Below are positions 30,934 to 54,250 of a stretch of 64,000 nt of DNA, in pieces. The notes beneath the pieces are model-generated. The model saw only the letters and a list, made by a program, of their open reading frames with translations. It was not told the DNA's origin and searched no databases. The stretch is from contig JABLUY010000184.1 in NCBI GenBank assembly GCA_013306675.1, forward strand, positions 1 to 64,000. Direction: 5' to 3'. Both the position numbers and the translations under genes were made by a program. This DNA is from Thraustochytrium sp. TN22. Taxonomy: Eukaryota > Sar > Bigyra > Thraustochytrida > Thraustochytriidae. Position 1 is the first letter of the stretch, and each line of letters starts with the position of its first letter.

Positions 30934-31864
30934 TCACGAGCGCTCGCGCAGCTCGTCCTCGCGCACAACCTGCTGGCGGCGCGCGCTGCTGCCTGGCTGC
31001 TGGATCTCAACGAGGTAGCGCGGCGCGTGCGACGCACTGCTGTTTTGCGCGCGGACCTCACGAATGACGGCCGGCAGCGCGCGCGAGCCGACGCGCTGCA
31101 CGGTGACGGTGTCGCCCTCCGCGAAGAGCGGGCGGCGCACCGGGACGGCATAGGACGCGGCATTCTTGAGCGCGCTACGCGCGGGCCGGGGCTCGTCTGC
31201 GACGACGACGGGCGCCGCCTCGGGCAAGTCGTCGTCGAGCGAGGCGCGGGACGAGGACCGCGAGGGCGTGGGAGAGGGCGCCGGCGTGGGTGCCGACACC
31301 GCGACCGGCACCGGGTCAGGACCGCGGCGCGCGCGGCGCACAGCGCTAGCGCCAGTGGCACCTGCGCTCGCGCTGGTCTGGCGCCGTGGCGGCTGCGCTT
31401 GCTGGCCCGCGATGGGCTCGCCCGCGGCAAGCCGGCGGCGTAGCGTGCGCGTGATGTGGCGCAGGCGGAGCGCCTCGCCGATGGAGAGCCCTAGGTCTCG
31501 CAGTTGGCCCTCGTTGGCGTAGACCACGGCCTCGAGGTCCATGTTCTCGGCTTGGAAGGTCTCCAGGTGGTGCTCGAGGCCTGCCTCGCGCATCAGATCC
31601 TCGGTGTCGTGGATGGGGCGCGTCACGACGGCGTTCACCGCGAGCGCCTCGCGCTTCGCCTGCACCAGCGTCGGGTTGCCGCTCAGCGCGAGGTAAACCT
31701 CGTCGTCGTCCGCATCGGTGGCGCGTGCGCCCATGCCAGCATCGGCCAGAAACACCTCTTGCGTGCCGGAGTCGTACCGCCTGCGCCCGTAGGCGCCGCC
31801 GACCATGGCGCGCGCGCCCGCTGCGCCCGCCGCGCCCGCCGCCCCGCGGCTGCGGCTGCGGTGC

Positions 31865-31905
<41 letters not shown>

Positions 31906-34900
31906 GAAGCCGAAGCCTCCAGGGTATGCCGCGCCCGCAAAGGCGGTGCTCATGGTGGTGTCGCCCTTGTGTGCACGGGACGGCGAGCCTGAGGAGCCCG
32001 AGCCGAAGATGCGGTCCAGGCGGTCGCGCACCGAGTCCGGCAGGCAGCTCGGGCAGGTCTTGCGCATGCACCAAAGCAGGCAGCAGCAGAGCCACGGCAG
32101 CACGCACAACAGCACGGCGAAGATGATGACGAGAAGTTTCCAATCCCAGCCGTCCCCCACGTCGTCGTTGTCGGCGTCCTTGGGGGAGTCCGTGGGCGAG
32201 ACCGTGCCACTGACCTCGACCGCGACGCGCTGCCCGTTGACGCAATTCTCGTGCGAGGGGTCCGGCAGCGAGCTTGCCAGGTACACCGTCGTGCCGGCAT
32301 CCTCCGACTCGGCCACGAAGCGGTACGAGCCCTGGCTCGAAGACGCCAGCAGCACGGCACCCGTGAAGTTGCACGCCTCGAAGAGGGTCTGCGAGGCCAT
32401 GCGCATCACGTTGCTGTCCTCCGAGAACGAGAAACTCACCGACTCGCCCACTTCAATCTCAATGAGCGGGTAGCCGCCCGAAGCCGCCGACACTGGTGCC
32501 CAGTCTGGCGTGCCATCCGGGTTTACCGGGATCTCGCGCCCGCACAAATTCGGCACGTCGCACACCAGGCCGTCCTCATAGCACATTTGCAGATCGATGC
32601 AATTGTCCGGCCCGGTTCCGGTCAGGTCGTTGCCGCTCAGGTTGAGCAGCTCCAGGTTCGTGAAGGGCTCCATCATGTCCTGCGTCAGCACGCCCTCGAG
32701 CCCATTATTTGGCAGGACAATCTCCGTGATGCTCGCGACGGACTCCTGCAGCGTCCGCAGCGCGCTGCGCAGCGCGCGCCGCGCCCCAATCTGCACGACG
32801 CACAGCACGTACGCGCTCTCGCTCGTGTCGGTGCACCCAGGGTCATTGCACGGGTTGTCCGGCGCCGTGCAGCTCGCCCATGACGACCCGCCCAGCGACT
32901 CGTAGACCTCCTCCCACGCGTCCAGCTCTGTCTGTGGCAGTGCTACGGGAGCTTGCGTTGGCAGCGCCGTTGGCAGCGCCGTTGTCGGCGCTCGCGATGG
33001 GGCTCGCGTCGGCGGCCGTGAGGTGGGCGCACTCGTCGGGCCTGCCGTCGTGGGCCGCAGCGTCGGCGTCCGCGTGGGCTCGCTCGTCGGCCTCTGCGTC
33101 GTTGGGCCCTGCGTCGGCGAAGTCGTCGTCGGCATTGCCGTCGGCACTCGCGAAGGCCTCGGCGTCGGCAGCGCGTCCGGCGGCATCGTAGGCTCCATCG
33201 TGATGCCACACTCCTCGGGCCCGGCCACCCAGTCCAGCGCGCGCTCCAAGCCGGCCGAGACACTGGCCAACAACTCGCACGTCCCATCCACCGCATTGAA
33301 CGAGAACCACCGGCACGCGTCCGACTCCGCGCACTCGTCCATGCATGCCATGGCCGAGTCAACGCCGTCCAAGGTCTGAAATGGCTCGTCCACCCAGCGC
33401 GCACCGTCCGTGAAGCAGCTCGTTGGCTCGCTCGTCGGAACGGCGCTCGGCACCGGGCTTGGCACCGGCGTTGGGCCTTCCGGGTTCACGCTGCACGAAA
33501 TTGCACCAAGTACCCAGTTCTCCGCCTCCGTCGTGCCTGCTTCCACGTCTGAGAACAGCTCGCACTGGCCCGCGTTGTTCGCCGATACCTTCACCGCGTA
33601 GTACATGCAGCCTTCCGTGGTGGCGCACTCCGCCTCGCACGAAGCCGCGTCCGGGTCCGTCGTCACTGTCTCGAACGGCTGCGAGTCCGTGCGTACATAT
33701 CGCTCGCCCTCCGTCGTGCAGCCCCCGCTCGAGGCTGTCGGCGCCGTGGTGGGCGTCAATGTCGCGCCGCCGCACTCGCGCGGGCCCGTCAGCCAGTTCG
33801 ACCGGCTCTCCGTTCCCTCGGACACGTCGCTGTAGTACTCGCATCGGCCCTCGTAGGTGCCGGCGTACTTGAACGCAAAGTACTCGCAGCCGTCCGTCAG
33901 CACACAATTGGCCTGGCACGCGTCCGCGGATACCGCAGACGCAGTGGCGCCGAACGGGTCGCTCACGAAGGTCTGTCCCGTTGTAAAGCACTCGCTTGGC
34001 GGCAATGTCGGCGCCGACGTCGTTGGCGCCGCGGTCGGCGCGCCCGTTGGCGCGGCGCTCACGGGTGCCACAAATGGCGCCCCCGTTGGCGTCAAAGTGG
34101 GCGTCACGCCGCACACCGCCGGCCCGAGCACCCAGTTGTCTGCGTCGCGGGAGCCAGCGCTCACGTCCGAGTACAACTCGCACTGGCCCGCATTGTTGGC
34201 GTCGGTCTTGACCGCAAAGTTTTGACAGCCCTCCGTCGCGGCGCACTCCGCCTGACAGGCCTCGGCGGTCGGGTCCGTCTCGATCGTCTCGAACGGCTGC
34301 GTGTCCGTGCGCTCGAAGCGGACGCCCTCCGAGTAGCAGCTCGCGCTGGGCGCTTGAGTTGGGCCCGTGCTTGGTGTCGGGGTGGTCGGGCCGATGCTAG
34401 GCGCTTCGGTCGGCTGAGCGGTCGGCGAAAGCGTCGTAGGGCCCGTGGAGGGTGCCGACGTGGTGGGCGCGGTGGTCGGCGTCGTCGGCGGCGTCGTCGG
34501 GGCGAAGGTCACGCCGCAGGCTACTGGGCCGATAATCCAGTTGTCGGCGTCGTCGCGCGTCCCAGCGCTCACATCCGAGTATAGCTCGCACTGACCGGCA
34601 TTGTTGGCGTCAACCTTGACCGCGAAGAACAGGCAGGCTTCGGTCGAGGCACATTCTTCCTGACATGCCTCGGCGGTCGGGTCCGTCTCGATCGTCTCGA
34701 ACGGCTGTGTGTCCGTGCGCTCGAAGCGGACGCCCTCTGTGTAGCAGCTCGCGCTTGGTGCTCCTGTGCTTTGCATCTCGGTCGGCGCAGCAGTAGGCGA
34801 GGCGGTCGTGGGTCCTGTGGATGGTGCCCGCGTGGTGGGCGAAGAGGTCGGCGGCGTAGGTGGCATGGTCGGTGAGAACGTCACCCCGCAGGCTACTGGG

Positions 34901-37900
34901 CCGATAATCCAGTTGTCCGCGTCGCGCGTCCCAGCGCTCACATCCGAGTACAGCTCGCACTGGCCGGCATTGTTGGCGTCCACCTTGACCGCAAAGTACA
35001 GGCAGTCTTCGGTCGAGGCACATTCTTCCTGGCACGCCTCGGCGGTCGGGTCCGTCTCGATCGTCTCGAACGGCTGTGTGTCCGTGCGCTCAAAGCGGAC
35101 GCCCTCCGTGAAGCAGCTCGCGCTTGGTGCTTGAGTTGGACCTGAGCTTGGTGCCAGGGTCGTCGGGCCAATGCTAGGCGATTCGGTTGGCTGAGCAGTC
35201 GGTGACAGCGTCGTAGGACCTGTGGAGGGCGCCATCGTAGTAGGCGCGGAGGTCGGCGTCGTCGGCGGCGTCGTCGGGGCGAAGGTCACGCCGCAGGCTA
35301 CTGGGCCGATAATCCAGTTGTCCGCGTCGCGCGTCCCAGCGCTCACATCGGAATACAGCTCGCACTGGCCGGCATTGTTGGCGTCCACCTTGACCGCAAA
35401 GTACAGGCAGTCTTCGGTCGAGGCACATTCTTCCTGGCACGCCTCGGCGGTCGGGTCCGTCTCGATCGTCTCGAACGGCTGCGTGTCCGTGCGCTCGAAG
35501 CGGACGCCCTCTGTGAAGCAGCTCGCGCTTGGTGCTCCTGTGCTTTGCATCTCGGTCGGCGCAGCAGTAGGCGAGGCGGTCGTGGGTCCTGTGGATGGTG
35601 CCCGCGTGGTGGGCGAAGAGGTCGGCGGCGTAGGTGGCATGGTCGGTGAGAACGTCACCCCGCAGGCTACTGGGCCGATAATCCAGTTGTCCGCGTCGCG
35701 CATCCCAGCGCTCACATCGGAATACAGCTCGCACTGGCCGGCATTGTTGGCGTCCACCTTGACCGCGAAGAACAGGCAGTCTTCGGTCGAGGCACATTCT
35801 TCCTGACACGCCTCGGCGGTCGGGTCCGTCTCGATCGTCTCGAACGGCTGCGTGTCCGTGCGCTCGAAGCGGACGCCCTCTGTGAAGCAGCTCGCGCTTG
35901 GTGCTCCTGTGCTTTGCATCTCGGTCGGCGCAGCAGTAGGCGAGGCGGTCGTGGGTCCTGTGGATGGTGCCCGCGTGGTGGGCGAAGAGGTCGGCGGCGT
36001 AGGTGGCATGGTCGGTGAGAACGTCACGCCGCAGGCTACTGGGCCGATAATCCAGTTGTCCGCGTCGCGCGTCCCAGCGCTCACATCCGAGTACAGCTCG
36101 CACTGGCCGGCATTGTTGGCGTCCACCTTGACCGCAAAGTACTGACAGCCCTCCGTCGCGGCGCACTCCGCCTGACACGCCTCGGCGGTCGGGTCCGTCT
36201 CGATCGTCTCGAACGGCTGCGCGTCCGTGCGCTCGAAGCGGACGCCCTCCGTGTAGCAGCTCGCGCTTGGTACTTGAGTTGGGCCTGGGCTTGGTGCCAG
36301 GGTGGTTGGGCCGATGCTAGGCGCTTCGGTCGGCTGAGCGGTCGGTGAAAGCGTCGTAGGGCCCGTGGAGGGCGCCGACGTGGTGGGCGCGGTGGTCGGC
36401 GGCGTCGGCGGCGTCGTGGGGGCGAAGGTCACGCCGCAGGCCACTGGGCCGATAATCCAGTTGTCGGCGTCGTCGCGCGTCCCAGCGCTCACATCGGAAT
36501 ACAGCTCGCATTGACCGGCATTGTTGGCGTCCACCTTGACCGCGAAAAACAGGCAGTCTTCGGTCGAGGCACATACTTCCTGACACGCCTCGGCGGTCGG
36601 GTCCGTCTCGATCGTCTCGAACGGCTGCGTGTCCGTGCGCTCGAAACGGACGCCTTCCGTGTAGCAGCTTGCGCTTGGTGCTTGCGTTGCGCCTGTGCTT
36701 GGTGCCAGGGTGGTTGGGCCGATGCTTGGCGATTCGGTCGGCTGAGCAGTCGGGGACAGCGTCGTCGGACCTGTGGAGGGCGCCATCGTTGTAGGCGCGG
36801 AGGTCGGCGGCGTCGGCGGCGTCGTTGGCGAGAACGTCAAACCGCAGGCTACCGGGCCAAGGACCCAGTTATCCGCGTCACGTGTCCCGGCGCTTACGTC
36901 CGAGTATAGCTCGCACTGGCCGGCATTATTGGCGTCAATCTTGACCGCAAAGTACAAGCAGTCCTCGGTCGCGGCGCACTCCTCCTGGCAGGCCTCGGCA
37001 GTCGGGTCCGTCTCGATTGTCGCGAACGGCTGCGCGTCGGTGCGCTCAAAGCGCACACCCTCCGTGTAGCAGGTCGTCGTCGGAGCTATTGTTGGGCCGG
37101 GGTTGGTCGCCTCGGTAGGCGCTGCGCTGGGAGCGACGCTTGGCATCGATGTTGGCGAGGCGGTCGTGGGGCCCGTGGAGGGCGCCGACGTGGTGGGCGA
37201 CGAAGTTGGCGGCGTCGGCGGCGTTGTGGGCGAGAAGGTCAGGCCGCATACGACCGGCCCGATGACCCAGTTGTCTGCATCGCGCCTGCCTGCACTCACG
37301 TCCGAGTACAGCTCGCACTGGCCCGCGTTGTTGGCATCGACCTTGACTGCAAAAAAGAGACAGGCGTCTGCAGCTGCGCATTGCGCCTGGCAGGAAGCCG
37401 CGTCAGGATCCGTCTGCAGCTCTGCAAAGGGCTGCGCATCTGTTCGCTCGAAGCGCACTCCCTCCGTGTAACAGCTCACGGTAGGCGCTACGCTGGGCTC
37501 GGTCAGGTCGTCCGTAGGCGGCATGGTAGGCGAGACTGACGGACCCGCTGTTGTTGAGGGCACGGTTGTTGGAGGGGTTGAGGTTGGTGCGGCCGACGGT
37601 GCTTGCGTTGTGGTCGAAATCGTCGGCGGAACGGGCGGCGAGGTCGGCGACAGCGTTGCCCCGCAAACCACGGGCCCGATGACCCAGTTGTCTGCATCAC
37701 GCGTGCCCGCGCTCACGTCCGAGTACAGCTCGCACTGGCCAGCGTTGTTGGCGTCAACCTTGACAGCAAAGTAGAGGCACGCGTCGACCGCGGCGCACGC
37801 CGCAAGACAGGCGTCCGGGTCCGGGTCGGTCTCGAGCGTCTGAAAGGGCTGCGCGTCTGTACGCTCGAAGCGAACACCCTCGGTAAAGCAGCTAGTGGGC

Positions 37901-40900
37901 GCTGCGGTCGGGATCGCTGTAGGCGTTCCCTGTGTCGGCGGGGCCGTCGTGGGCTCTGCGGTGGTGGGCGCATTGGTTGTTGTCGGCCCAGCAGTTGTCG
38001 GCTCTGGCGTCGCAGGCGCACTTGTTGTGGGTGCAGCTGAGGGCGCTCGTGTGGTGGGCGAGGACGTTGGCGAGACGGGCGGCGAGGTCGGCGACAGCGT
38101 TGCCCCGCAAACCACCGGCCCGATGACCCAGTTGTCTGCGTCGCGCGTGCCGGCGCTCACGTCCGAGTACAGCTCGCACTGGCCAGCGTTATTGGCGTCA
38201 ACCTTGACCGCAAAGTAGAGGCACGCGTCGACCGCGGCGCACTCCGCAAGACAGGCGTCCGGGTCCGGGTCGGTCTCGAGCGTCTGAAAGGGCTGCGCGT
38301 CTGTACGCTCGAAGCGAACACCCTCGGTAAAGCAGCTAGTGGGCGCTGCGGTCGGGATCGCTGTAGGCGTTCCCTGTGTCGGCGGGGCCGTCGTGGGCTC
38401 TGCGGTGGTGGGCGCATCAGTTGTTGTCGGCCCGGCTGTCGTCGGCGGGGCCGTGGTCGGCTCTGTCGTCACAGGCGCACTTGTGGTGGGTGCAGCCGAG
38501 GGCGCTCGTGTGGTGGGCGAGGCCGTTGGCGGAACGGGCGGCGAGGTCGGCGACAGCGTTGCCCCGCAAACCACCGGCCCGATGACCCAATTATCTGCGT
38601 CGCGTGTGCCGGCGCTCACGTCCGAGTACAGCTCACACTGTCCAGCGTTGTTGGCGTCAACCTTGACCGCAAAGTAGAGGCACGCATCGACCGCGGCGCA
38701 CTCCGCAAGACAGGCATCCGGGTCTGGGTCTGTCTCGAGCGTCTGAAAGGGCTGCGCGTCCGTCCGCTCGAAGCGAACGCCTTCCGTATAGCAGTTTGTG
38801 GGCGCTGCGCTGGGAGCGGGCGTGGGCGCCGGCGCTGCGGTCGGGACAGGCGTGGGCACCGGTGCTGCGGTTGGAACAGACGTGGGCACAGGCGCTGCGG
38901 TTGGACTCGATGTAGCCACCGGCGCTGCGGTCGGGACAGGCGTGGGCACCGGTGCTGCGGTTGGAGCAGATGTAGGTGCTGGCGCTGCGGTCGGAGCAGG
39001 CGTGGGCGCGTCCACGGCGGTGGGCTGCGAAGTTGCGACCGTCGACGGTGCTGGAGTCGCGCCGCAGACGGCGGGGCCGAGGACCCAATTGTCCGCGCTT
39101 CGCGTGCCCGCGCTCACGTCAGAGTAGAGTTCGCAGCGGCCAGCGTTGGTGCCGGCGAGCTTGGCGGCGAAGAACGTGCAGGCGCCGGAGGCCGCGCATC
39201 GTGCCTGGCACGTCTCGGCGTCCGCATCAATGTCTAGCGTCTGAATGGGCTGCGAGACCGTGCGCTCGAAGCGAAACCCATCTGTGAAGCAGCTCGTCGG
39301 CGCGCTGGTCGGCTGCCTCGTGGGGCTTACTGGGACGGGCGCCGGCGTCGTAGGCGGACGGCCGGTTGGGTATGGCGTCGGAGCTGGCGTGTTTGGAGGC
39401 TGCGTTGTAGGCGCCGGCGTGGTGGGCGCCGGCGTGGCTGGCGCCGGCGTCGCCGGAGCTGGCGTCGTCGGAGGCCGTGCAGTCGGGTAGGGGGTTGGTG
39501 CTGGCTCGGTGGGCTGCTGCGTCGGGTTTCGGGCCGTCGGCGAAGGCGTCGGTACCGGCGCTGGCGCGGTGGGCGACTGCGTCGGGGCGTCCTCGGTTGG
39601 CGACGGCGTGGTTGGGGCCCTAGCGGTCGGGTAGGGCGTGGGCGCATTGTCCGTGGTGGGCTGCGACGAAGGCGCCGCAGAAGGCGCGAGCGTGGCCGCC
39701 GGCGCCGCGGTCGCCGTGGGCGCCCGCGCGGTCGGGTAGGGCGTGGGCGAGAAGTCGGCGGTGGGGCTCGCGGTGGTGGGCGCCGCAGTGGGAAGGAGGG
39801 CGACGCAATCGGGCGAGCCAGAGACCCAGTCCGAGTCGGACTCGGTGCCGTCGAGGCTCGTGAAAAGCTCGCAGGAGGCGGCGCCGTCGCCGGAGACCTG
39901 GTAGGAGTAGAACTCGCAGGCGACGAGGCCGGCGCATACATCCCTGCAGTCCTCGATGGAGCCCACGCCGTCGAGGGAGAAGAGCAGGTTGTCGGTGGTG
40001 ATGAGGCGCAGGTTCTCATACGTGCAGGGCAGCGCGATGGGGCTGGCGACGGGCGCCAGGGTCGGCGCTGCGGTGGCGCAGATTTCGACGAGGCTGCGCG
40101 AGAAGTCGCAGGTCCAGGAGCCGTCGGTGCACTCAGGCAGCGCGATGCAGTTGGCGCCGGTGGTGCTGGAGGAAGTGCTCAGCACGTTGCGGTTGTTGGA
40201 GGTGCTTGAAGTCGAGGAGAGGTTGAGCGTGTTGAGCTGCGTGAAGGCGATGAGCGCGCTGCGGGTGAGGTCGCCAAAGAGGCGATTCTCCGGCAGCACA
40301 ATGCCCTGAATACGGCCTTGGTCGGAGCAGAGGATCTCGCGGCCTTGCTCGCTGCAGGAGCAGGGGTCTGCGAGCGCCGCCTCGTCGGCACAGTGCATAT
40401 AGTACAGGTTGGTGAGCCCCTCGGCGCTGAGGACCTCGACCAAGTTGGCGTACGCGTAGCGATCGCCCTCGTTGGTGACCGCGCGCACGACTTCGATCAT
40501 CGCCGGGCCGAGCGCGAGCGCGGCGGCGAGTGCGGCGACCAGGAGCCTGGCCAGCGCGAAGCTTTGCTGCACGCGCTGCACCGGCCGGCGCGGCCGGCGC
40601 TGACCGTGGCCCGCGTGCCTCGCCGCGGGTTCTGCGCGCCTTGCTCGCGGTGGCAGCTCCGCCTCTCTTGGCGGGCCGCGCGCCCATGGCGGCCTTGGCC
40701 TCGTTCGTGGCGAGGTGGTCGTGCTCGTGCCCGCAGGCGGCCGTGCCCTCCACGAGCCGCGCTCGCCCTCGCGCTCGCCCTCGCCCGCCTGCAGCAGCCG
40801 CTCGTCTCGCCCTGCTTCGCGTCCTCTGCTCGCCGCCTCGCCTGTGTCGCTGCGCCGCGCTGCTCCCTCCCTCGCGGGCGCGCCTCTCCGCGCGCGCGCG

Positions 40901-41139
40901 TCCATGTCTCGCCTTGCGCCATGCCACGCGGAGCCTGAGCATGATGATGGTGGCACCTGCGCGCGCTGCGCATGCGCCATGGCCTCTCGCGCCTCGCCGG
41001 CGCCCGCCGGCCGCGGCCTGCGCATGGCGGCCCGCGCCCGCGCCCGCGCCCGCGCTTGCGCCGGAGCGAGCGCCAGCGGACTGCCCCGCCGCGCGCGCGC
41101 CGGCGGCCTCGGGCGCGGGCGCCTCCATCGAGCCGCCAT
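30934..41139 (-). CDS. Giant membrane protein with 17 PAN/apple-like modules and a SAM domain
   Basis: Open frame of 3,401 codons, stop TGA at 30934-30936. The start is uncertain: in-frame ATGs lie at 41139, 41025, 40980 and 40905. The first ~190 residues are Arg/Ala/Gly-rich, and a signal-like helix (FALARLLVAALAAALALGPA) comes only at about residues 195-215. Then an LRR cap (IVLPENRLFGDLTRS), 17 Cys-rich apple-like modules (CYTEGVRFERTDAQPF, ECAATEDCLYFAVK, GQCELYSDVSAGTRD) separated by Thr/Pro-rich mucin-like linkers (DNA ~33190-40040), a second LRR block, a cupredoxin-like beta domain (DNA ~32215-32470), one TM helix near residue 3006 (LLVIIFAVLLCVLPWLCCCL), a poly-Asp stretch, a SAM domain (about 3173-3233, MREAGLEHHLETFQ) and a Tudor/SH3-like end. 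A cell-surface adhesin or receptor with carbohydrate- or protein-binding modules is inferred. Confidence 0.85.
33400..39300 (-). repeat. Coding tandem repeat, ~365-440-bp period (apple module plus linker)
   Basis: Nucleotide-level repeats inside the giant gene. A block beginning at CTTGGTGCTCCTGTGCTTTG occurs at about 34757, 35531 and 35897; the last two are 366 bases apart and almost identical. Other units share the module but have different linkers. Outer modules (about 33200-34000 and 39080-40030) are much more diverged, showing that the centre expanded recently. Confidence 0.85.
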
Positions 41140-42015
41140 CGTCGCGGCCGTCGTGAGTCACGGTCACACGAGCGAGCGTAGGCCAGGCCGTAACAAGCCT
41201 CGAGCTCAGGCCGACTGCCACCGCGGCGCCGCGCAAGGGCGCCCGCGCCCGATTCTCCACTTGCGCGCCCGCGCCGCGCCCTTGCGCGCCCGATTCCCCA
41301 CTTGCGCGCCCGCCGGGACGGCGCGCGCTGGTCCCTCCGCGCTGCGCGAAGGGGTTGCGCGCGCCGCGGCGAGGCCGCCGAGCGCTCGCCGAGCACGCGA
41401 CGGCCGCGCCGAGCAAACTTGCGGCGCGGCGCGGCGCGGGCGGGCCTGAGGGTGTGAGCGGCTGGCTGGCTGGCTGGCTGGCGCCAGAGAGCGCGACGCG
41501 CCGCTGCCGCGCAGCTGGCTGCAGCGCAGAGTGGTGGTTCGTTCCTATAGGCGGCGTCCTATAGGCTCACTCAGCTCGCGGTCTTCCCCTTTCCCCACAG
41601 GAAAGAGGGTGAGACTTGCTAAGCTGCAGAACAAGAAGGTAACTCGGAGGCTTCGGGCTCAGCGCAACGCAGCGCAACGAGGATGTTCTTGTTCTCGAAT
41701 CTCGAGTCTCGAGATGAGACAGTTCGCCGTCAGAACTGTTTTCGCCTGTACGTCTCGAACGGCGGCATGACGGCGGCACCAGCACTGGTCTGGGTTCCCG
41801 TTCGAGGTTAAGCTCCGCTTGGCTCGGCAAGGAATTTCGATGACTGCATGATCGAAAAAAAGGAAAAAGGACGTTGAATGGGTCTTTTGCATTTTACTGG
41901 GAAAAGAAAAAGGGGCAAAAGAAAGCGATGGCAGGCAGAAGACCGCTGGGGTGGAAGGGCAAGACGCAGGTCGCGCGCCGTGTTCAACGGCGCGGCGGGG
42001 AGCATCCGAGGCCCT
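41140..42015. other. Gene-free stretch upstream of the giant gene
   Basis: About 880 bases. It contains a GGCT tetramer run (about 41459-41482), near-palindromes of the type TCGAATCTCGAGTCTCGAGA at about 41695-41713, and a short segment (41795-41835) resembling the end of the 345-bp tandem unit (AAGCTCCGCTTGGC). Nothing coding supported. Confidence 0.45.
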
Positions 42016-42104
42016 ACCTTCTCCCTCCGCAGGTATTACCAACTGATCAGGTTCAAAGGGTATGATCTCAGCACCCAAAAGGACGCACCCCCGACCCCAA
42101 AAGT
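42016..42104 (-). promoter_or_regulatory. TPP (thiamine pyrophosphate) riboswitch aptamer
   Basis: On the minus strand the conserved THI-element blocks occur in order: GGGGGTGC; GGGTGCTGAGA (42066-42076); ACCCTTTGAACCTGATC (42045-42061); GGTAATACCTGCGGAGGGA (42022-42040). Flanks ACTTTT (42099-42104) and GAAGGT (42016-42021) can pair as a P1 stem. These match the pyrimidine-sensor CUGAGA, the ACCUGAU block, and the UAAUACC-GCG-AGGGA pyrophosphate-sensor region of TPP riboswitches. The aptamer lies about 75 nt past the stop codon of the folate-receptor-like gene, on the same strand, so it is most simply in its 3' UTR as in plant THIC. The next gene start on this strand, the giant apple protein, is over 870 nt away. 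Confidence 0.9.
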
Positions 42105-42179
42105 CTCCTGTGTTCCGCCTCGCTGCAGCATGCACGAGGGCAGGGCTGACGATGGCGCTTCGAGCGGCAAGGGGCGCGC

Positions 42180-43112
42180 TTAGGTCATGACGACGTTGTG
42201 GGTGCGGGCGTTGTCGGCCTCCTTGTCTTCGCCAATGGTGTCGAAGTTGTCCGGCGCGAAGTAGGGCTTGCCCATGCGCTCGCGGCGGATCAGAAGGACG
42301 GACCAGCAGCAGACAAGGCCGGCGACGACGGAGAGCACGATGATGGCAATCTTGGCGCCCTGCGAGAGCTTGCTGCCCTCATCCTCGGTCTCGGGGGTGA
42401 TCGAGGGGCAGTTGAACCAGTTGCCGTCGGCCTCGCCGGTCTCCTCGTCAGGGCACGAGATGAAGGAGTCCATGCGGCAGGCCTCGAACCAGGCGTCGCA
42501 GTAGTCGCCGCGAATGGGCATGCCCTCGATCTCCCAGGAGTTGGCCTCCGGGGTGTTGGTGTGATCCACGTTGGGCGCGTACTTGCGGAAGAGGCCGGCG
42601 TTGACGTCGCACTCGTACAGGCAGTACTCCTGCACGAAGAAGCGCTCGCACTGCTGGCTCAGCGTGCCGCAGCGGTTCCAGTTGAACTCCTCGCCGTACG
42701 CCTGGCGCATCTGCTCGGGGCTCTGCACCACGTCAGCCTGGCAGCACGAGTTGTGGTTCCAGGGCGAGCACTCCGGGAGCGTCTGGTTCTGGGGCGCCGG
42801 GTGGCTGAAGTCGTCGTACTGCAGGTGGCAGGTGCCCGTGTCGTTGTACGACTGCAGGCCGTTGGCGATGCGCTGCGCCGAGACGGCGTCGTTCGGGTTC
42901 GTCGGGTACGTGAAGAACCACATGGTGTAGGCCATATCGAACTCCGGGTCATCCTTGGCCACGTACTTGAACGCCGGCCCGAACAGGTTCTCGCACAGGC
43001 CCTTGCCGTTCTTGTACAGCGTCTCGAACGTCACGCACGTCGGCTCCGCCGCCTCCGCGCCGCCGGCGGCGGCCGCGGCCACCGCCAGCACCATGGCCAG
43101 GCGCTGAATCAT
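42180..43112 (-). CDS. Folate-receptor-family type I membrane protein, probably B1-regulated
   Basis: 310 residues from ATG 43112 (MIQRLAMVLAVAAAAAGGAE gives a signal peptide). The ectodomain is Cys-rich with the folate receptor pattern: CENLFGPAFKYVAKDD; CSPWNHNSCCQ; CGTLSQQCERFFVQEYCLYE (the family's C..FF.Q..C..ECSP-like core); then GDYCDAWFEAC. A C-terminal TM helix (about residues 253-275, AIIVLSVVAGLVCCWSVLLI) and a 35-residue cytoplasmic tail replace the GPI anchor common in animals. The family binds folates or riboflavin. The downstream TPP aptamer suggests a link to thiamine instead, which is an inference. The 5' leader contains GGCA tetramers (plus-strand TGCC, about 43138-43186). 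Confidence 0.88.
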   Translation of the reverse strand: MIQRLAMVLAVAAAAAGGAEAAEPTCVTFETLYKNGKGLCENLFGPAFKYVAKDDPEFDMAYTMWFFTYPTNPNDAVSAQRIANGLQSYNDTGTCHLQYDDFSHPAPQNQTLPECSPWNHNSCCQADVVQSPEQMRQAYGEEFNWNRCGTLSQQCERFFVQEYCLYECDVNAGLFRKYAPNVDHTNTPEANSWEIEGMPIRGDYCDAWFEACRMDSFISCPDEETGEADGNWFNCPSITPETEDEGSKLSQGAKIAIIVLSVVAGLVCCWSVLLIRRERMGKPYFAPDNFDTIGEDKEADNARTHNVVMT

Positions 43113-53856: not shown

Positions 53857-54180
53857 GTATTTGCTTTGCGCTCGTATGCGGTTGCGTATGCAATGCCGGG
53901 TCACCTGTCGAGTGACACGAGTCGAAAGCCCTTACGTGCCACACGAGTCGAAAAGGTCTGCCCTGTCCTTGGACGAGTAAGACAAAAAAAAAACGAACGT
54001 ACGATGACTTCTCCTGTAACTTAACATTGAAAGCTCAAACTTGAAGAATTTTTTAACACCTGCGCCGAGAATGGACTCTCACAGCCCGCCGCAACTTGCC
54101 CAAATCAAGTGATGATCAATCAGAAAAAAAAGAGACGCAAAAAGTGGACAAAGAGGATGTGGTGGACAAAAAAAAAAGAA
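53857..54180. other. Spacer between enoyl reductase and tRNA-Gly
   Basis: About 320 bases, AT-richer than average. It has a duplicated CACGAGTCGAAA (about 53917 and 53941) and several A-runs. The A-run at 54168-54178 would serve as the minus-strand T-run Pol III terminator of the tRNA. Confidence 0.55.
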
Positions 54181-54250
54181 GCGCGAACCGGGACTCGAAC
54201 CCGGACCAGCCGCATGGCAAACAGCTATTGTACCCTTCAACCATTCGCGC
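54181..54250 (-). tRNA. tRNA-Gly (anticodon GCC)
   Basis: 70 nt, full cloverleaf read on the minus strand: acceptor GCGCGAA/TTCGCGC, D stem GTTG/CAAT, anticodon stem GCTGT/GCGGC with loop TTGCCAT (anticodon GCC), short variable loop, T arm CCGGG-TTCGAGT-CCCGG. No intron. The T arm contains a B box (GGTTCGAGTCC). A T-run follows within about 3 nt of the 3' end on the minus strand. Confidence 0.96.

Follow-up and report, generated by a model that had tools for sequence, protein, structure and literature searches.

Why should a thiamine pyrophosphate (TPP) aptamer lie behind a gene of the folate-receptor family? The question arises from a window of 64,000 nucleotides of Thraustochytrium sp. TN22 (contig JABLUY010000184.1 of assembly GCA_013306675.1), the whole stretch of DNA analyzed here, for which an earlier note, made from the letters alone, had proposed a TPP riboswitch in the 3' region of a folate-receptor-like gene. 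The answer that we favor is that the element is probably a TPP riboswitch in the 3' untranslated region (3' UTR) of an ATS1/FOLR-type gene, that this gene forms a two-gene set with an SLC19 carrier gene elsewhere in the genome, and that the set is subject to a TPP-driven negative feedback on thiamine uptake.

A TPP aptamer downstream of a folate-receptor-family gene

The locus consists of two features of the window:

42180..43112, minus strand: folate-receptor-family gene (ATS1/FOLR-like), 310 aa, a single, intact open frame
42005..42102, minus strand: TPP riboswitch aptamer (RF00059), a covariance match with P2, P3, CUGAGA, P4, P5, and the GCG motif present

The predicted receptor matches PF03024 with an E-value of 4.5e-31 (108.5 bits, cut-off 29.8) and comprises an N-terminal hydrophobic stretch, the PF03024 ectodomain, a transmembrane helix at residues 257-275 according to hydropathy, and a short tail. 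It has 105 relatives at E <= 0.001, the nearest being an MMETSP protein (64%) and one from Hondaea fermentalgiana (62%), a thraustochytrid (Labyrinthulomycetes) that provides the nearest named protein; by protein similarity, the window is likely to come from the same group. No relatives were found in viral contigs among the 69 stretches bearing the peptide pattern, and the aptamer pattern was matched neither in viral contigs nor in phage records. The genome also contains a second, distant PF03024 gene (C134:42172-42534; 40.5 bits, over the cut-off), which has no aptamer match.

The stop codon of the receptor gene occupies 42182-42180 and the aptamer follows on the same strand. The RF00059 and PF03024 matches together bear out the arrangement proposed earlier, as do the conserved TPP blocks, found at the claimed position on the minus strand, and the spacing, claimed to be about 75 nt (75 nt separate the stop of 42180-43112 from 42104). 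In a covariance search of 1.7 kb with RF00059, the aptamer scored 48.8 bits (E 4.4e-8) with model positions 1-105 all aligned, and its genome-wide E-value is 2.3e-7 (37.9 Mb). The RF00059 alignment and a motif check agree that CUGAGA, UUGAACC, the P5 loop, and the GCG motif are intact. In the same alignment the P3a hairpin is nearly missing, one of the four P4 pairs is non-standard and so are three of the five Rfam P1 pairs, the latter in both genomic copies of the aptamer (see below). Because of these departures the score falls short of the RF00059 gathering score of 54.3, below which the second copy (49.4 bits) also remains, and for that reason a scan of the window at default Rfam thresholds omits the aptamer and returns a tRNA at 54180-54250 as its sole entry. 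Among the outcomes that would refute its proposal, the earlier note had listed a sub-threshold covariance score, and formally this is what the search returned; the E-value of 4.4e-8 and the second copy nevertheless leave little doubt that the element at 42005-42102 is a TPP aptamer.

The possible 6-bp closing stem (ACUUUU/GAAGGU, 42104-42099 with 42021-42016) that had also been proposed is not supported: Rfam puts P1 elsewhere, and in the second copy a T to A change at 42100 costs the stem one of its six pairs. As an extended P1, we considered a long-range helix that encloses the aptamer (28 bp in the window, 27 bp in the second copy), with an MFE z of -2.13 that 3 of 200 shuffles equaled. Flank shuffles with dinucleotides kept were as good as the real sequence in 60 of 1000 cases for the window and 521 of 1000 for the second copy, so that we dropped this candidate and claim no extended P1 stem.

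A second aptamer and a shared 3' block behind the SLC19 gene

Across the 37.9 Mb and 453 contigs of the genome, RF00059 has two matches at E <= 0.001, with 49 of the 959 first-look candidates scored, and the aptamer motif pattern likewise occurs at two places, compared with none for the same pattern read backwards; a third aptamer appeared neither among the scored candidates at that threshold nor by motif pattern. The second match lies on another contig (C30):

C30:28402-28500, minus strand: second TPP aptamer, RF00059 49.4 bits

Its E-value is 3.1e-8 in a 1.7-kb search and 1.7e-7 genome-wide, it aligns over model positions 1-105, and the ligand-contact blocks are undamaged in both copies. The gene that precedes it on the same strand encodes an SLC19 carrier (PF01770 E 4.3e-29, 101.9 bits, cut-off 27) and is the only PF01770 gene of the genome over the cut-off. 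The solved relatives of this protein are THTR2, THTR1, and the reduced folate carrier RFC, and at least five relatives were found at E <= 1e-10 among 8000 candidates scored, the nearest of these being a Hondaea protein named 'Folate transporter 1' (58%). SLC19A2 and SLC19A3 transport thiamine, and the contacts reported for human SLC19A3 are Glu32, Glu110, and two of Phe56/Trp59/Tyr113 (PMC11447181). The thraustochytrid protein keeps Glu32 (E150) and Tyr113 (Y230) and has Trp for Phe56 (W173), Asn for Trp59 (N176), and Gln for Glu110 (Q227); Asn297 and Glu320 of SLC19A3 fall outside the aligned part. These residues appear compatible with thiamine, without proving its transport, and the Gln at the Glu110 position speaks against tight thiamine binding of the human type.

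The resemblance between the two loci extends beyond the aptamers:

41866..42141, minus strand: 276-nt 3' block including the aptamer, also present at C30:28262-28538, minus strand, behind the SLC19 gene
41893..41898, minus strand: AGTAAA hexamer, candidate poly(A) signal, kept in both copies

The block occurs at two places in the genome with 89% identity (BLAST); its alignment contains 14 substitutions in 269 columns, plus indels, and the distance from the stop codon to the start of the block is 38 nt in the window and 48 nt on C30. The coding sequences of the receptor and the SLC19 carrier belong to different families, unlike their near-identical 3' regions. Put simply, one gene may have received the entire 3' UTR of the other as a copy, or conversion may have kept the two alike, and the block is presumably transcribed as a real 3' UTR. 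The homology of the two copies stops 27 nt past AGTAAA. Among 49 putative ORFs, two have this hexamer within 350 nt of the stop, at offsets of 294 and 281 (the latter being the receptor gene of the window), a survey that includes both riboswitch genes and is uninformative since the set contains spurious ORFs. The two copies are too alike for the parts under selection to be readable from the block: among 90 MFE pairs, 78 are unchanged, two have one side changed, none has both changed, five are broken, and five are gapped, and 3 of 87 columns changed inside the aptamer compared with 11 of 182 outside it (p 0.56), which gives no signal of aptamer-specific conservation between the copies.

How the aptamers may control the two genes

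We propose that, at high cytosolic levels, TPP would bind the aptamers, move P4 from an alternative pairing to its ligand-bound form, and thereby lower the expression of both the receptor and the SLC19 mRNAs, the receptor acting as a surface binder and the SLC19 protein as the importer, both for thiamine, in an organism apparently unable to synthesize this vitamin and still making folate. In the MFE fold of both copies, the ACCU of P4 pairs with an AGGU just 3' of the aptamer. Enforcing canonical P4/P5 costs 3.4 kcal/mol (window) or 3.7 kcal/mol (C30) over the MFE, and ligand binding could cover this cost of 3.4-3.7 kcal/mol. The enforced fold was rejected as a model of the whole ligand-bound aptamer, as P2 is lost in the computed fold. 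For the step after TPP binding, we tentatively favor, at somewhat under even confidence, altered 3'-end formation or altered stability of an unspliced mRNA; we prefer this to splicing because the genome looks intron-poor.

The pairing of a TPP aptamer with a PF03024 gene is itself known. The earlier note had called a receptor gene an unusual target, a judgment contradicted by published PF03024 genes with predicted TPP riboswitches, namely ATS1 in Micromonas (PMC4260697) and FOLR in two diatoms (PMC9544697), and its mention of TPP riboswitches at non-canonical B1 genes of marine eukaryotes was correct (PMC4260697, PMC9544697). McRose et al. 2014 described TPP riboswitches on PF03024 genes and named these ATS1; at the last time point, Micromonas RCC299 without thiamine expressed ATS1 at an 80-fold higher level. 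In that study, riboswitches in 3' UTRs occur in Micromonas clades A/B, C, and E, and at least 14 riboswitch genes are apparently unspliced (PMC4260697). Micromonas ATS1 resembles the window gene in its PF03024 domain, its TPP aptamer, and the incomplete thiamine biosynthesis of its bearer; RCC299 has UNK1 in addition to ATS1, whereas the thraustochytrid partner is an SLC19 gene with a common 3' UTR, and the two lineages differ, the thiamine response having been measured in Micromonas while control in the thraustochytrid is predicted (PMC4260697). Among labyrinthulomycetes, Aplanochytrium kerguelensis is reported in the same study to have a TPP riboswitch on SSSQ, also a transporter gene but one for a sodium:solute symporter (PMC4260697). 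Here, the single SSF symporter gene found (contig C94) has no TPP aptamer match, which sets the genome apart from some other marine protists, where SSSP, SSSF, and SSSQ genes carry a TPP aptamer.

The diatoms provide the main reason to consider an aptamer that regulates nothing, either a relic or an RNA that binds TPP and lacks an expression platform, a reading that we regard as unlikely, though it carries real weight. Llavero-Pasquina et al. 2022 describe FOLR genes with aptamers in two diatom species, still call the function of FOLR unknown, and conclude that the 3'-UTR TPP aptamers predicted on diatom genes with a proven role in thiamine supply fail to act as riboswitches (PMC9544697); no riboswitch action of these aptamers was found, and the 3'-UTR isoforms of PtTHIC did not change in 3' RACE (PMC9544697). 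By analogy, such non-functional 3'-UTR aptamers are a serious caution for the riboswitch reading in the thraustochytrid. The diatom FOLR genes, judging from the same text, share with the window gene the PF03024 domain and a 3'-UTR aptamer and are suspected to encode a thiamine receptor; the diatom aptamers do have the P3a stem that is nearly missing in the thraustochytrid (PMC9544697). The weak P1 of both copies, the long-range stem that barely beats its shuffled flanks, and aptamer columns whose conservation does not clearly exceed that of the remaining block all agree with a lack of regulation. Against it, the ligand-contact blocks are whole in both copies and both aptamers found in the genome adjoin genes of vitamin-uptake families.

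In plants, the THIC gene has a TPP riboswitch in its 3' UTR that acts through splicing. Control of a 3'-UTR intron by TPP in the same style would be one form of functional control, and its likelihood therefore overlaps that of our preferred explanation; we consider it rather improbable for the thraustochytrid. A possible donor exists:

42016..42017, minus strand: candidate 5' splice site GT (GAAG|GTAGGG, speculative), just behind the aptamer and identical in both copies

As long as TPP is absent, pairing with P4 bases would mask this donor (42017-42016), TPP would release it, and the acceptor would lie at 41898-41897. The 3' position of the element and the pairing of the donor with aptamer bases resemble plant THIC, where, however, the target is synthesis instead of uptake; in the thraustochytrid, the intron is only a candidate in an apparently intron-poor genome. 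In its favor, the donor is the same in both copies, both bases of its GT have high predicted pairing probabilities when no ligand is present (0.98 and 0.73 in the window, 0.97 and 0.70 in C30), and a pyrimidine-rich tract precedes the AG in both copies despite their differing sequence there. On the other side, the acceptor of the C30 copy is GAG, and just one of 66 myosin-head matches (on contig C72) was seen to be frame-split, a count in which stop-free introns could hide. That intron (C72:9864-9975, ~110 nt) has a GTACGTAAG donor, a GACTAAC branch point, and a CACAG acceptor, whereas no CTAAC occurs between the candidate donor and acceptor or elsewhere in the block. An intron motif scan of 266 kb (44 sequences) found 185 CTRAC-type candidates compared with 278 in reversed controls and revealed no consensus; CTAAC-type candidates numbered 24 compared with 88 in the controls, and those with a pyrimidine tract two compared with two.

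Our preferred reading can be extended to a B1 import system made up of the receptor and the SLC19 carrier, with a 3' UTR copied between contigs and unspliced mRNAs controlled by a route that is neither that of plants nor that of fungi, although we hold this fuller proposal to be possible rather than probable. If true, a circularly permuted receptor (see below) and an SLC19 carrier would be placed under one control through a copied riboswitch 3' UTR. The 89%-identical 3' region behind the SLC19 gene is genetic evidence that ATS1/FOLR proteins and a carrier jointly serve thiamine uptake, and since neither gene shows a visible intron, their 3' regions offer a natural pair for studying splicing-free riboswitch action in eukaryotes. 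The known pairing of TPP aptamer and PF03024 gene extends here to a labyrinthulomycete-like protist. A literature search conducted mostly on titles and the starts of abstracts, with most subscription papers and the supplements outside its scope, found neither a protist SLC19 or folate carrier gene with a TPP riboswitch nor a 3' region shared in this manner by two genes; SLC19 and carrier mentions in the accessible portions of PMC9544697, PMC11683625, and PMC10568373 are unrelated to a protist riboswitch.

Thiamine or folate as the cargo

The family name of the receptor suggests another function, in which it binds folate and TPP control represents cross-talk between two vitamins. We find this improbable. 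The solved members of PF03024 do include folate receptors, but the fold is not restricted to folate, as riboflavin-binding protein and Juno demonstrate. In addition, all 85 aligned sequences (the window protein and 84 of its 105 relatives) have Glu at the position of the human Asp of F-I-Q-D, which we take to be a folate contact in the human folate receptor. Thiamine appears to be the likelier cargo because its synthesis genes were not found while TPK and an HPPK-DHPS fusion are present: ThiC had no match in the genome (13 of 14 controls detected), NMT1/THI5 likewise gave no match (12 of 14 controls detected), and no true TMP synthase was found, the two sub-threshold TMP-TENI hits being a nitronate monooxygenase and Dus (dihydrouridine synthase). 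These absences refer to the 453-contig assembly and to a search set of ThiC, NMT1/THI5, and TMP synthase. The HPPK-DHPS gene argues that folate is probably made by the organism itself, which counts against a folate receptor, and the gene content as a whole suggests an organism that probably imports thiamine and makes folate. Folate receptor and SLC19 families are also both present in mammals; to our knowledge, no riboswitch is known in animals.

A chance or antisense match related to neither gene, to which only the score under the gathering cut-off could point, is highly improbable given the two genome-wide E-values (2.3e-7 and 1.7e-7), the absence of hits for the backwards pattern, and the like place and strand of the aptamers behind two genes of distinct vitamin-uptake families.

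A frame on contig C28 (~49.4-57 kb) encodes the N-terminal half of what, judging from the translation, is a MetH-like methionine synthase. Its pterin-binding domain occurs three times, 2259 nt apart, with a stop in the last match, and the repeats may be either a real array or an assembly artefact.

Circular permutation of the receptor

The domain order of human folate receptor alpha (FR alpha) was not found in the thraustochytrid receptor: its halves are swapped, and profile comparisons indicate that the protein is circularly permuted relative to FR alpha. In a search of solved structures with an 18-sequence profile, positions 87-219 matched FR alpha chain 31-155 and positions 19-81 matched FR alpha chain 168-231 (i-Evalue 5.9e-4); an 85-sequence profile gave the swapped order again, with an i-Evalue of 0.0029 for the second stretch. 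When the halves were compared separately, the profile of residues 20-88 reached 30.2 bits with the C-terminal half of FR alpha, compared with 10.3 for the best of 2000 shuffles, and that of residues 92-236 reached 78.4 bits with the N-terminal half; half-profiles from the larger alignment gave 30.3 and 82.7 bits. Residues 21-90, searched as a single sequence, gave folate receptor beta 146-199 as their best hit, a weak one (E 0.032). The swapped order is common to the 18 aligned sequences (17 relatives, including two from amphioxus, plus the window protein), whereas mammalian folate receptors, of the same family PF03024, have the halves in the other order. A permuted receptor of this kind was not found in the literature, as judged mostly by titles and abstract starts with most subscription papers and supplements outside the search, and the available part of the ECOD paper names folate receptors and circular permutation without connecting them.

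Neighboring genes

The gene convergent with the SLC19 gene (L003:487-4167) has a 1226-aa frame that combines ApbE, FAD-binding (fumarate-reductase-like), and NAD-binding reductase domains. In the window, downstream of the riboswitch and on the same strand, positions 30934-41139 contain a 3401-aa frame with PAN domains.
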